Position numbers and translations under genes: made by a program. From an uncultured Candidatus Pelagibacter sp. (GTDB lineage: Bacteria; Pseudomonadota; Alphaproteobacteria; Pelagibacterales; Pelagibacteraceae), in contig CAJQRS010000016.1 of NCBI GenBank assembly GCA_905612375.1, forward strand, positions 1-34,824: 34,824 nucleotides of DNA. The letters run 5' to 3'. Under the pieces are notes generated by a model that was not told the DNA's origin, made no database searches, and saw only the letters and a list, made by a program, of their open reading frames with translations. Positions 11,967 to 21,737 of this stretch are shown here, in pieces (the first letter of the stretch is position 1; the number at the start of each line of letters is the position of its first letter).

Positions 11967-12638
11967 GTGTTAAAAAAGATAATAAGAAAACTTCATATAT
12001 TTCATAGTATTTATATAAAGCATAAATTTTTTATTAAAAAAAAATCCTATGCAATGGATAATGAGGACTTAGCAGTAATAGATTATTTTAAAGATAAAAA
12101 AAATGGTTTTTATGTTGATGTTGGGTGCTATCATCCTACACATAGAAACAACACCTACTTACTCCATAAAAAAAATTGGAGTGGTGTTAATATAGATACA
12201 AGTGAATTTTCTATTGATTTATTTAATCACATGAGACCTAAAGATCTTAATTACAATTGTGCAATTTCTAATAAGAATGAAATTATAAAGCTGTTCTACC
12301 AAAAAGAACTCAGCCAACTAAGCACAACTGAAAGAGATCAAGCAGAGACCGTTTTTCAAGGCAACATTAAAGAAAAAGAAGTACAAGCTTTTACTTTGGA
12401 TGAAATATTGGATAGAGATAAATTTAAAGACATCAAAATCGACTTTTTAGACATTGATGTTGAGGGAGCTGACCTTAAGGTTTTAGAAGGTCTATCATTT
12501 GACAGGTTTAAACCTGAATTAGTATGTGTCGAAATTCACGCTAAAGAGATAAAACAAAGTGATGTCTATAAGTTTTTAATTAAAAAAAACTATGAATTAC
12601 TTTGGTCTGGTGTTTTTAGTCACATTTTTAAAAAATAA
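11967..12638 (+). CDS. FkbM family methyltransferase (copy 1)
   Basis: GTG start; DYFKDKKNGFYVDVGCYHPTHRNNTYLLHKKNWSGVNIDTSEFSIDLFN and IDFLDIDVEGADLKVLEGLSFDRFKPELVCVEIH. Confidence 0.9.
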   Translation: MLKKIIRKLHIFHSIYIKHKFFIKKKSYAMDNEDLAVIDYFKDKKNGFYVDVGCYHPTHRNNTYLLHKKNWSGVNIDTSEFSIDLFNHMRPKDLNYNCAISNKNEIIKLFYQKELSQLSTTERDQAETVFQGNIKEKEVQAFTLDEILDRDKFKDIKIDFLDIDVEGADLKVLEGLSFDRFKPELVCVEIHAKEIKQSDVYKFLIKKNYELLWSGVFSHIFKK

Positions 12639-13409: not shown

Positions 13410-14900
13410 ATGAATTTGTTTTTTATACTTGGCAACCAATTATTTCCATTAAAATATGTAGACCGCTTCAAAAAGGACCACCTATTTTATATGGCTGAAG
13501 ACTACGAGTTATGTACCTATGAGAAGCATCATAAGCAAAAGATACTGCTATTTCTATCTTCTATGAGGTCATATGCGGATATGCTTAAGGTGAATAAATA
13601 CAAAGTTGAATATTCTAAAATTGAGGACAAAGATTTTAAAGATACTTATTTTAAGAAATTAAAAATTATCATTGATAAAAAAAAAATTACTGAAATTAAA
13701 AGCTTTGAGGTTGAGGATAAATTTTTTGAAAAGAAAATTTCGCAATTTTTAAAAAAAGAAAAAATTAACTGGAATATTGTTCAAACTCCAATGTTTCTAA
13801 ATTCAAGAGATGAGTTTAAAAATTATTTAGCAAAATCAAAAAAACCTTTTATGGCAACATTTTATAAGGAGGTTCGTAAAAAATCTGGAATATTAATGGG
13901 AGCAGATGGAAATCCTATTGGAGGTAAATGGAGTTTTGATGAAGATAATAGAAATAAGTTGCCGAAAGATATATTAATACCAAAATTTCCAAAAATTAAC
14001 GAAACCAGTCATACTAAAAAATTAAAACCTATTATTGAAAAGTTTTTTAAAGATCATCCTGGTAACACAAGTGATTTTTGGCTTGCAACTGAATACAGGG
14101 ATGTCGTTAAACTTTTAGATTTTTTTATTAAAGAAAAATCAAATTTATTTGGTGACTATGAAGATGCTGTTAATCAAAAAGATAATATTTTATTTCATAG
14201 TGCATTAAGTCCGTACATTAATTTAGGATTGATAACTCCTGAAATTATCATTCAAAAAATTTTAGAATTTCATAAAAAACACAAAATTAGAATGAACTCG
14301 CTAGAAGGTTATATTCGTCAGGTAATTGGCTGGAGAGAGTTTATGCGTGGAATTTATCAAGGGTATTCCAATGAAATGGAAACTAAAAATTTTTTCAAAC
14401 ATGAAAGAAAAATGAAAAATTCTTGGTATGAGGGCACAACAGGTTTGCCACCACTTGATCATGCAATTAAGAATGCAGTTAACCACGGCTGGTCTCATCA
14501 TATTGAAAGATTGATGATTTTATCAAATATAATGAACCTTTGTGAGGTGAAACCAACTGTTGTTTACAAGTGGTTTATGGAGATGTTTGTAGATTCTTCT
14601 GACTGGGTGATGGTTCCCAATGTTTATGGAATGGGTCTGTTTAGTGATGGTGGTATTTTTGCAACAAAACCATACATCTGTGGATCAAGTTACTTTATGA
14701 AGATGATGGATTTTAAAAAAGGCGAATGGTGCAATACGATGGACGGCCTTTATTGGAGATTTATAGATAAAAATAGAAAATTTTTTTTAAAGAACCCCAG
14801 ATTATCAATGATGGTTTATGTATTTGATAAAATGAAAGATGAAAGAAAAAAAATGATTTTATCTGAAGCAGATAAATTTATTAAATTAAATACTGCATAA
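13410..14900 (+). CDS. Cryptochrome/photolyase family protein (bacterial (6-4) photolyase/CryPro-type fold, apparently without the Fe-S cluster)
   Basis: 496 aa; MNLFFILGNQLFPLKYV, FYKEVRKKSGILMG.DGNPIGGKWSFDEDNRNKLP, QVIGWREFMRGIY, NHGWSHHIERLMIL and DWVMVPNVYGMGLFSDGG match the family. Confidence 0.93.
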   Translation: MNLFFILGNQLFPLKYVDRFKKDHLFYMAEDYELCTYEKHHKQKILLFLSSMRSYADMLKVNKYKVEYSKIEDKDFKDTYFKKLKIIIDKKKITEIKSFEVEDKFFEKKISQFLKKEKINWNIVQTPMFLNSRDEFKNYLAKSKKPFMATFYKEVRKKSGILMGADGNPIGGKWSFDEDNRNKLPKDILIPKFPKINETSHTKKLKPIIEKFFKDHPGNTSDFWLATEYRDVVKLLDFFIKEKSNLFGDYEDAVNQKDNILFHSALSPYINLGLITPEIIIQKILEFHKKHKIRMNSLEGYIRQVIGWREFMRGIYQGYSNEMETKNFFKHERKMKNSWYEGTTGLPPLDHAIKNAVNHGWSHHIERLMILSNIMNLCEVKPTVVYKWFMEMFVDSSDWVMVPNVYGMGLFSDGGIFATKPYICGSSYFMKMMDFKKGEWCNTMDGLYWRFIDKNRKFFLKNPRLSMMVYVFDKMKDERKKMILSEADKFIKLNTA

Positions 14901-16407: not shown

Positions 16408-17115
16408 ATGAGTAAAATATCTAAAAACAATATTTTTTATAAATTGTATTTATATTACAATTTGTACATCCGGCATAAAGCCCTAAAGTTAAGAAGCACA
16501 TATTCCCAGCATCAAGAAGATTTATTTATTAATGATTATTTTAAAGATACAAACAATGGTTTTTATCTTGATGTGGGGTGCTACCATCCGATTAAGTATA
16601 GTAATACAGCACTACTTAATAACCGGGGTTGGCAAGGAATAAATATTGATATGAATCAAACGTCGATAGATTTATTTAATATATTAAGAAAGAAAGATAA
16701 AAATATATGTGCAGCTATTTCGAACGAAAATAAAGAAGCTATACAATATTTGGATCACGCATTTAGCCCAATAAATACATTGGTAAAAAAATTTTCCGAT
16801 ATGACTTCTAAAACTATTTCTTTCAATAACCATTCAGAAAAAAAAATTTTCATACATAAATTTAGTCAAATTGTTCAAGCACAAGAATTAAAAATAAATC
16901 AAATAGATTTTCTTAATATTGATGCAGAGGCTCATGATTTTGAAGTTTTAGAAGGTATTGATATAAGCTTTTATAAGGTCAAACTGATTTGTATAGAGAT
17001 GTTTGATTCTCAAAATCAAATTAATGAGGTAAAATTCAAGGATTATTTGATCAAATATAATTATCATCTAATAAAAATAATTGGCCCAAATGGTTTTTTT
17101 GAATTTAGAAGTTAA
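16408..17115 (+). CDS. FkbM family methyltransferase (copy 2)
   Basis: YSQHQEDLFINDYFKDTNNGFYLDVGCYHPIKYSNTALLNNRGWQGINIDMNQTSIDLFN and IDFLNIDAEAHDFEVLEGI; same layout as the copy at 11967. Confidence 0.9.
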   Translation: MSKISKNNIFYKLYLYYNLYIRHKALKLRSTYSQHQEDLFINDYFKDTNNGFYLDVGCYHPIKYSNTALLNNRGWQGINIDMNQTSIDLFNILRKKDKNICAAISNENKEAIQYLDHAFSPINTLVKKFSDMTSKTISFNNHSEKKIFIHKFSQIVQAQELKINQIDFLNIDAEAHDFEVLEGIDISFYKVKLICIEMFDSQNQINEVKFKDYLIKYNYHLIKIIGPNGFFEFRS

Positions 17116-18779: not shown

Positions 18780-19397
18780 TCATTCTAAGTTGGCTTTTAT
18801 TACATTTTCTAAGTTTGCAGAACTTTGAGCTCCCGAAACAACATCTTTTCCAATTTCAAAGAAGGGGACACCATTAATTTCTTTTTCTTTTGCAATACCA
18901 ATATAAGAATTAACTTTTTCAACATTGTTTGAATTTAAAAAATTATTTACCTCACTTTCTTTAATATTAAATTCTGTTGCAATATTAATTAAAATTTCTT
19001 TATTTCCAATATCAAGACCTTCAACAAAGTATGAGTGATATATTTTTTCTTTAACCTGATTTTGTACATTTGTCTGCCCAGCTAATTTGATCAATAGATG
19101 AGAAAGTACTGTATTGGGTGTTTTCTTGATATTATTAAGATTAAAATTAAGATCTTCTTTTTTAGCTTCTTCAGTCATACGATCATACATTGGTTGAGCA
19201 AATTCTTTTCCACCAAATTTCATTTTTAAATATTGATTTCTTTCAACTCCTTCTTTTGGCATATCTGGATTTAATTGATATGGAACATGCTCTATCTCAA
19301 ACTTAGTTTCAGGAAAATTTTTTACAGCCTTATTTAGTTTTGTCTGACCAATAAAACACCAACCACAAATCGTATCTGCAAATACTCTTATAATCAT
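18780..19397 (-). CDS. DsbA family oxidoreductase (FrnE-like)
   Basis: MIIRVFADTICGWCFIGQTKLNKA with a CxxC; KEINGVPFFEIGKDVVSGAQS with cis-Pro GVPFF. Confidence 0.92.
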   Translation of the reverse strand: MIIRVFADTICGWCFIGQTKLNKAVKNFPETKFEIEHVPYQLNPDMPKEGVERNQYLKMKFGGKEFAQPMYDRMTEEAKKEDLNFNLNNIKKTPNTVLSHLLIKLAGQTNVQNQVKEKIYHSYFVEGLDIGNKEILINIATEFNIKESEVNNFLNSNNVEKVNSYIGIAKEKEINGVPFFEIGKDVVSGAQSSANLENVIKANLE

Positions 19398-19400
19398 TTT

Positions 19401-20546
19401 TTAATTAAACTTTGTAACTATCTTGGGTATATAATTTTTAAAATTAAAAAAACCTTTATTACAAAACTGCCATGAAAATTGATCTATTTCACGATAAATA
19501 AATTCTATATTCTTTAATTCACAAAGTTGTAAGTAGTCTAAATTCTCTCCAACTGTTGGATAAAGTGCATAAACTGGTTCTTTAATATTCTTAAGTTCAT
19601 CAATTTTAATTACTTCCGTTGTAATTGATTTTTTTTTAAGCCTATTTAACTGGTCATTAATTAAAAGAGTTTTAAAATTTAGTGTATTTTCACTTAATTG
19701 AATTTGTCGTGTTTCATTTGTATTTGAAATTATTAAGATCTTTTTAAAGTTGTGGCCCTTAAAATCAGTAAACTCCATTGCAAGATTGTTATCAAACACT
19801 AATAATACCTTGTCTTCTAATAAATGAGGGTTGGTAAAGCTCTTTTCTACAACTGAATAGCTTTTTTCAGTAATTTTTGGAGCAGCTTCTTCATTTATTT
19901 TAATATTTTGAAATCGATTATTAGTAAATTTTTTTATATTCCATTCTGTAGCTAGATAATTTTTCCCCTGTGTTTGAATTCCAGCAACCCATCTCCAACC
20001 TAAAGTATTAGAAGCGGCATCTCCATCAAATAAATGTTTCATAAAAAATTCTGCACCAAGTTGCCAGGGTAAATTTAATGTAAAAATCCAAATACTAGCA
20101 AACCACATTCGTGTATGATTATGAAGATAGTTAAATTCCTTAAGTTCATTTACCCATTGATTAAAACACTCAATACTTGTTTTACCTTCTGTAGCATCAA
20201 GGTAATCCTTATTATCTTTCAAGTTTTCTTTTATATCTTTTAATTCTTTTAAGTAGTCTGTCCAAACGTTTGGCCTTAATTCGAGCCAACCTTTCCAATA
20301 AACTCTCCAAAGAACCTCTTGAATAAATTTTTCATTTTTTACAAATGAAAACTTTTTTAATGATTTATTAATAATCTCCAGCTCATTAATTAAACCATGG
20401 TTTACATAGGGTGATAAGCATGAGGTGTTAACTCTTTTTTGAGGACCAAAATCAAAATTTCTTAACTTAGAATATTCTAAAAGATTATTTTCAATAAATT
20501 GATTTAACTCCCCAACAGCCTCAGTCCTTGAACCTTTAAATTTCAT
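19401..20546 (-). CDS. Photolyase-family FAD-binding protein with apparently swapped domain order
   Basis: Residue 3 onward already matches the photolyase FAD domain: FKGSRTEAVGELNQFIENNLLEY..R, TSCLSPYVNHGLI, VLWRVYWKGW and YLHNHTRMWFASIWIFTLNLPWQLGAEFFMKHLFDGDAASNTLGWRWVAGIQTQGKNYLA. The remaining ~140 aa (KVLLVFDNNLAMEF...KKILIISN...VYALYPTVGENLDYLQ) looks alpha/beta. Confidence 0.88.
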   Translation of the reverse strand: MKFKGSRTEAVGELNQFIENNLLEYSKLRNFDFGPQKRVNTSCLSPYVNHGLINELEIINKSLKKFSFVKNEKFIQEVLWRVYWKGWLELRPNVWTDYLKELKDIKENLKDNKDYLDATEGKTSIECFNQWVNELKEFNYLHNHTRMWFASIWIFTLNLPWQLGAEFFMKHLFDGDAASNTLGWRWVAGIQTQGKNYLATEWNIKKFTNNRFQNIKINEEAAPKITEKSYSVVEKSFTNPHLLEDKVLLVFDNNLAMEFTDFKGHNFKKILIISNTNETRQIQLSENTLNFKTLLINDQLNRLKKKSITTEVIKIDELKNIKEPVYALYPTVGENLDYLQLCELKNIEFIYREIDQFSWQFCNKGFFNFKNYIPKIVTKFN

Positions 20547-20552
20547 AATGAA

Positions 20553-21737
20553 TTATCTTAATTGTTTTTTATGAAAATTAATAAACTTTTCTACGTTTGA
20601 TTTATTAAAAGTTTTGTTTTCTTCAAAAGAAACTTTTTTCATTGAGTAAGCACTACTTTTTGTTTGTCTAGACATTATAGTTATATTGCCCTTGTATAGT
20701 TTGAGTTTAATAGAACCATTTACTTTACTCTTTTTAAGATCCACAATCTTTTGAAGTTTTAATCTTGCTTTTGAGTACCAGTAACCATTGTAAATAAGTG
20801 CAGCATATTTTGGCATAATTTCATCTTTTTTATGCATGGTTTCTTTATCTAAAGTAACTGATTCAATAGCTCTATGTGCTGACATCAGTAATGTGCCACC
20901 TGGTGTTTCATAAACACCTCTAGATTTAATCCCAATAAATCTATTTTCAACTAAATCAACTCTACCTATTCCATTTTTACCAGCAACCTCATTAAGTTTT
21001 TCCAACAAGTTTCCAGGCGATAATTTTTTACTATTTACAGTTATTGGATCTCCATTTTTAAATCCTATAGTTACGAAGGAAGCTTTGTTAGGTGCTTTTT
21101 CAGGAGACACAGTTCTTTGAAAAAGAAATTCTGGAGCTGCGTTTTTTGGGTTTTCTAAAACCTTACCTTCAGTTGATGTATGATATAAATTATCATCAAT
21201 AGAAAAAGGGGGAGCACCTTTTTTATCTGTTGGAATTGGGATATTATTTTCTTTTGCATATTTAATTAAATCAGTTCTAGAGTTTAATTTCCATATTCTC
21301 CAGGGAGCAATAATTTTTATCTTAGGACCAAAATAATGATAGCCCAATTCAAATCTTACTTGGTCATTCCCTTTTCCAGTTGACCCATGTGATACAGCAT
21401 ATGCACCATATTTTTTTGCAGCAGCAATTTGACGTTTTGCAATTAATGGTCTTGCAATTGAAGTGCCCAATAAATAAACACCCTCATAAATTGCGTGACC
21501 TCTAAGCATTGGAAAGACATAATCTTTTACAAAAACATCCTTTAAATCTTCAATAACAATATTTTTAACACCTAATTTTTTAGCATTCTTTATAATTTTT
21601 TTTCTATCAATTTTTTGACCAACATTAGCTGTGTAACAGATAACTTCAGCATCGTAATTTTCTTGAAGCCATTTTAAAATAATAGATGTGTCTAACCCAC
21701 CCGAATAAGCGAGTACAATTTTTTTTTTGGGTTTCAT
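20553..21737 (-). CDS. argG: Argininosuccinate synthase
   Basis: KKKIVLAYSGGLDTSIILKWLQENY, AVSHGSTGKGNDQVRFELGY, APWRIWKLNSRTDLIKYA and GRVDLVENRFIGIKSRGVYETPGGT. Confidence 0.98.
   Translation of the reverse strand: MKPKKKIVLAYSGGLDTSIILKWLQENYDAEVICYTANVGQKIDRKKIIKNAKKLGVKNIVIEDLKDVFVKDYVFPMLRGHAIYEGVYLLGTSIARPLIAKRQIAAAKKYGAYAVSHGSTGKGNDQVRFELGYHYFGPKIKIIAPWRIWKLNSRTDLIKYAKENNIPIPTDKKGAPPFSIDDNLYHTSTEGKVLENPKNAAPEFLFQRTVSPEKAPNKASFVTIGFKNGDPITVNSKKLSPGNLLEKLNEVAGKNGIGRVDLVENRFIGIKSRGVYETPGGTLLMSAHRAIESVTLDKETMHKKDEIMPKYAALIYNGYWYSKARLKLQKIVDLKKSKVNGSIKLKLYKGNITIMSRQTKSSAYSMKKVSFEENKTFNKSNVEKFINFHKKQLR

Follow-up and report, generated by a model that had tools for sequence, protein, structure and literature searches.

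A photolyase with inverted domain order, very probably of the NewPHL type, in SAR11 bacteria

Results and discussion

The window analysed here, a stretch of 34,824 nucleotides from an uncultured Candidatus Pelagibacter sp. (GenBank assembly GCA_905612375.1, contig CAJQRS010000016.1), carries a complete gene (positions 19401 to 20546, reverse strand) for a 381-residue photolyase in which the FAD domain comes first and an alpha/beta domain last. Compared through published descriptions of traits, this protein is very probably a NewPHL. We consider it likely that the whole is explained by an inverted photolyase of that type, with cyclobutane pyrimidine dimer (CPD) chemistry in the FAD domain, a degenerate antenna-type domain at the C-terminus, and a history in which two genes were joined or, in reverse, one was split. 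The inverted layout is already in print for NewPHL/Phr7 and for the Phr4/5 and Phr6 proteins of picocyanobacteria (PMC9426592). What this analysis adds is the spread of the gene through SAR11, an apparent distant homology of the C-terminal domain to photolyase alpha/beta domains, and the putative two-gene intermediates.

The gene and its FAD domain

According to the ORF list, the reading frame is intact, starts with ATG and lies where the first-pass annotation had placed it. Orthologs of equal length occur across SAR11. The argG gene ends at position 20553, 6 nt ahead of this ATG, so that no alpha/beta domain precedes the FAD domain, and an overlooked in-frame domain upstream, a possibility that had been raised earlier, is thereby ruled out. 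Beyond the other end, a DSBA-like gene (PF01323; positions 18780 to 19397, reverse strand) begins 3 nt past the photolyase stop. In the window and in close relatives it comes immediately after the photolyase gene; at other SAR11 loci it is usually absent or else sits between that gene and argG.

The FAD (catalytic) domain comprises residues 1–213 (positions 19908 to 20546, reverse strand). Pfam places FAD_binding_7 (PF03441) at residues 74–198 (E = 4.1e-17), and residues ~7 to ~197 align with the C-terminal FAD domain (residues ~205–395) of class I photolyases of known structure. An AlphaFold2 model built from 80 SAR11 orthologs (pLDDT 81.5, pTM 0.84) contains solely helices up to residue 207. 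The proposal that the FAD domain comes first and the alpha/beta domain last is borne out by the Pfam match, the structural alignment and the model, and the FAD_binding_7 domain together with the FAD-contact residues places the protein in the photolyase/cryptochrome superfamily.

Active-site residues were mapped from E. coli photolyase onto 48 members of the family. The equivalents of Y222, E274, W277, R278, N341, R344, M345, D372, D374 and N378 (E. coli numbering) are invariant (48/48), and that of W384 is kept in 46 members. Those of W382 and W359 are also retained; the tryptophan dyad formed by W184 and W161 is invariant in the 48 sequences, as is N180, the conserved Asn at FAD N5 (48/48). 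The position of the third tryptophan (E. coli W306) is mostly Leu, Phe or Tyr, and Trp is never among the residues listed there. At the R342 position all members have His, and Trp (Trp95 in the SAR11 protein) occupies the C292 position in 44 of the 48. No conserved set of Fe-S cysteines was found among these members.

The invariant FAD- and CPD-contact residues and the Trp dyad lead us to predict light-driven CPD repair with a photoreduction chain of two tryptophans. In the proposed mechanism, the N-terminal helical domain would bind FAD and carry out the chemistry: reduced FAD, excited by blue or UV-A light, would donate an electron to a flipped-in dimer, which would then be split, while the photoreduction of FAD would run through W184 and W161.

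Two-gene relatives and comparison with known classes

The nearest relatives outside the family are FAD-only proteins of about 245–300 residues. At nine loci (L102–L109 and L267, of which L106 had its small-protein candidate identified in a later comparison), the ORF immediately downstream of the FAD-only gene, mostly overlapping it by 4–8 nt, codes for a small protein of ~130–180 residues. This gene pairing is the one known as phr4/phr5 from marine Synechococcus. These loci are located in Alphaproteobacteria and on a Deinococcus plasmid. A profile of eight of the free-standing alpha/beta proteins matches the class I alpha/beta domain (score 57.1, E = 1e-8, 130 columns); the Deinococcus protein gives a weak match to PF00875, under the cut-off (E = 2e-4).

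In the FAD-domain tree, all fused proteins fall into one clade (support 100/99), which joins the two-gene form at 88/80. Class I (93/94) and PhrB (100/99) are separate from this group, and the join between those two carries a long-branch warning. Since the closest relatives consist of a FAD-only gene and a separate alpha/beta gene, the reversed order most likely arose by the joining (or splitting) of adjacent genes: a FAD gene and the alpha/beta gene downstream of it, which the relatives still keep apart, would have become a single reading frame, or a single frame would have been divided. Of the two, fusion, a direction that we infer, is the simpler history. The first-pass annotation had described the alpha/beta domain as moved to the C-terminus; its C-terminal position stands, but two adjacent genes joined (or split) make a likelier history than a displacement. 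The two-gene relatives also offer a direct route to testing how photolyases acquired either domain order.

The name NewPHL reportedly goes back to Emmerich et al. (2020), who are said to have described a reversed topology in which one domain seals the FAD site. NewPHLs, also called SPL, include Prochlorococcus Phr7 as a protein of the same type, and have been named from Dinoroseobacter shibae (A8LJA9), Methylobacterium mesophilicum (M7YZC8), E. litoralis and R. centenum, other accessions being Q2N8F4 and B6IPR5. They have an N-terminal FAD domain and a C-terminal Z-domain, carry no Fe-S cluster and repair CPDs in single-stranded DNA (PMC9426592); the D. shibae protein has a Trp dyad (PMC8948257), and a conserved Asn lies at FAD N5 (PMC12083526). 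The SAR11 protein likewise has an N-terminal FAD domain and a second domain at the C-terminus. As read from the sequences, W184 and W161 correspond to the two-tryptophan electron-transfer chain, and N180 matches the Asn beside FAD N5. Fe-S cysteines are absent, as in Phr7, and the fused family resembles NewPHL in being abundant in Alphaproteobacteria. The probable assignment to NewPHL rests on these published traits, found wherever they were checked, and on the presence of the fused gene in family f23 (136 of 397 genomes, nearly all matches extending across both domains). This family is probably Rhodobacteraceae, because one of its proteins is an ortholog 70% identical to that of Ruegeria, and D. 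shibae and Ruegeria are members of one order. No clear two-gene form was found among the 397 genomes of f23, and a literature search on circularly permuted photolyases gave nothing relevant.

The inverted layout is shared with Phr4/Phr5 and Phr6, in which the FAD part also comes first and the alpha/beta part second; phr4 and phr5 are split genes in marine Synechococcus, and phr6 is a fused gene in two Cyanobium strains (PMC9426592). These proteins carry Fe-S cysteines, whereas the SAR11 protein lacks the four, and Phr4/5 takes up two reading frames where the SAR11 photolyase takes up one. In the FAD-domain tree, the split (Phr4/5-type) domains are the sister of the fused clade. Class I CPD photolyase (E. 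coli PhrB) has its catalytic and FAD-contact residues in common with the SAR11 protein. Its domain order is however the opposite, the SAR11 ORF starting at the FAD domain with no alpha/beta domain at the N-terminus; its third Trp is not conserved in the SAR11 protein, nor are R342 and the C292 position, and the fused clade falls outside the class I clade. The PhrB/CryB prokaryotic (6-4) photolyases (DPRP, PF04244) provide the best direct profile match for the SAR11 C-terminal domain with their alpha/beta domain, but have the opposite order, a distant FAD domain and, in most, an Fe-S cluster.

Since Phr4/5 and Phr6 are also inverted, the layout possibly has more than one origin, and the likeness to NewPHL was drawn from published descriptions. 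The fused proteins could then be a separate, undescribed class, a permuted CPD photolyase similar to NewPHL but of independent origin and acting on double-stranded DNA. We regard this as unlikely, as the architecture, the Trp dyad, the lack of Fe-S cysteines and the alphaproteobacterial range are all those of NewPHL, and the fused proteins form a single clade.

The C-terminal domain

A poorly conserved linker (residues 214–245; positions 19812 to 19907, reverse strand; mean column identity 0.41) leads to the C-terminal alpha/beta domain (residues 246–381; positions 19404 to 19811, reverse strand). In the AlphaFold2 model, residues 247 to 350 form five beta strands alternating with helices, and two helices continue to residue 380, in agreement with the alpha/beta fold expected for residues ~240–381. 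For a protein with two domains this pTM is high, and it speaks for a defined placement of the modelled domains relative to each other.

Neither the Pfam search nor the PDB profile search gave a match for the C-terminal domain, and Foldseek with this domain alone returned nothing below E = 1e-3. The lowest Foldseek E-values belong to generic Rossmann-like proteins, with eIF2B and dehydrogenases also listed, while the two highest query TM-scores listed (0.55 and 0.56) are those of the PhrB-type photolyases 8ijy and 3zxs.

Profile comparison with hhalign, weak at the outset with fewer sequences, became clear after more members and the free-standing alpha/beta proteins had been included. With 48 family members, the domain scores 33.8 against the PhrB/DPRP alpha/beta domain (E = 9e-5, 126 columns), the E-values of these comparisons being single-comparison values in the 1e-4 range and the homology remote; the best of 100 column shuffles reaches 20.7. 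The score against the free-standing alpha/beta proteins is 30.8 over 135 columns, the GFFxFKxxIP end included. Compared directly with the class I alpha/beta domain, the C-terminal domain gives only a marginal match (19.7, best shuffle 19.3), and the unrelated Rossmann-like controls IF-2B, USP and ETF score 11.3–14.9. For calibration, the alpha/beta domains of class I and PhrB were compared with one another and reach a score of only 18.8. These profiles support a remote homology between the C-terminal domain and the antenna (alpha/beta) domains of photolyases, as had been suggested from its alternating character. A chance fusion with an unrelated Rossmann-like domain would account for the generic proteins at the lowest Foldseek E-values and for the lack of a Pfam match; it is nevertheless very unlikely, given that the PhrB-type and free-standing scores clearly exceed those of the shuffles and of the IF-2B, USP and ETF controls, and that the two-gene relatives have an alpha/beta photolyase domain in the matching place.

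The motif D-x3-W-x5-G-F-F-x-F-K-x2-I-P (residues 355–375; positions 19422 to 19484, reverse strand) stands out among the conserved columns, and the GFFxFKxxIP-type tail aligns with the KRFFRYWxxxKK end of the free-standing proteins (hhalign, 135 columns). By region, the tail is conserved above the domain core (0.55 vs 0.42), which suggests a role in an interface or in sealing rather than a retained antenna pocket. In the most likely arrangement, the degenerate antenna-type domain would lie against the FAD domain, close the FAD site and complete the fold; a conserved antenna chromophore is probably absent. It is an even call whether the same two modules were joined in alternative ways to give the canonical and the inverted photolyases, with the two-gene FAD and alpha/beta operons as intermediates; the 'sealing' domain of SAR11 and NewPHL proteins would then be an antenna domain that has degenerated rather than a new invention.

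Distribution, selection and predicted function

In sunlit sea water, SAR11 ranks among the most abundant groups of bacteria. The best 80 of 572 related GTDB stretches are all from SAR11 and span practically the whole query, with 69–93% identity. In the window's family, 104 of the 147 genomes sampled have a match at E ≤ 1e-20; for 15 of these it is a weaker, canonical-type match only, and 89 carry the FAD-first gene, a few of them in truncated form. The gene is nearly universal in the window's genus (25/27 genomes sampled). The fused form occurs in 21 of 289 genomes of the class sample, and full-length matches in the phylum sample are confined to the window's class. Named orthologs are borne on plasmids of Ruegeria, Novosphingobium, Niveispirillum, Peteryoungia and Asticcacaulis, and those with a gene table are annotated merely as FAD-binding domain-containing protein. 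The earlier belief that relatives exist in other marine alphaproteobacteria is thus confirmed by the class sample, the named orthologs and family f23. A scan of viral contigs found no relative of the FAD-first gene; matches in phage-labelled records are partial, lie in the FAD region and are of the canonical type.

Against four close relatives, dN/dS is 0.07–0.09 for the FAD domain and 0.11–0.17 for the C-terminal domain; both domains are under purifying selection. A chance ORF or a misassembly is ruled out by these low values and the 80 intact, end-to-end orthologs.

The most likely function is CPD repair in single-stranded DNA, the strand preference being one that we infer. If the protein is a true single-stranded-DNA CPD photolyase, it would be a third photo-repair enzyme in a highly streamlined genome. 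At ~4.5 kb from the FAD-first gene, the window carries a gene for a prokaryotic (6-4) photolyase of the PhrB type (DPRP, PF04244; positions 13410 to 14900, forward strand), and such a gene is found close by in 68 of 80 SAR11 loci. The window's PhrB-type protein lacks the four Fe-S cysteines retained by most alphaproteobacterial relatives; they are likewise reported absent from Prochlorococcus PromaPL. The third photolyase of the same genome is a canonical class I protein of 475 residues (L002, G000:C7:29314-30477).

Because the class I and PhrB-type enzymes could cover repair without the FAD-first protein, because conservation is lower in the core of the C-terminal domain than in the FAD domain, and because the Ruegeria homolog lies near sensor and response-regulator genes, a cryptochrome-like light sensor whose C-terminal domain signals to a partner rather than aiding repair might be considered, but it is highly improbable, as all the CPD-contact residues tested, including the equivalents of E274, W277, N341 and M345, are invariant or nearly so, and no recurring signalling partner was seen in the SAR11 neighbourhoods examined. 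The signalling role envisaged in the first-pass annotation hence finds no support in the invariant CPD-repair residues.

On alphaproteobacterial plasmids, fused orthologs (L262, L263, L265 and L266) are repeatedly found near AarF/UbiB-kinase and DUF3429 genes, a vicinity that may point to a common regulon for light or oxidative stress. In the window, two similar methyltransferase-like ORFs with a VDVGCYHP motif (positions 11967 to 12638 and 16408 to 17115, forward strand), recognised by eye, flank the PhrB gene region.
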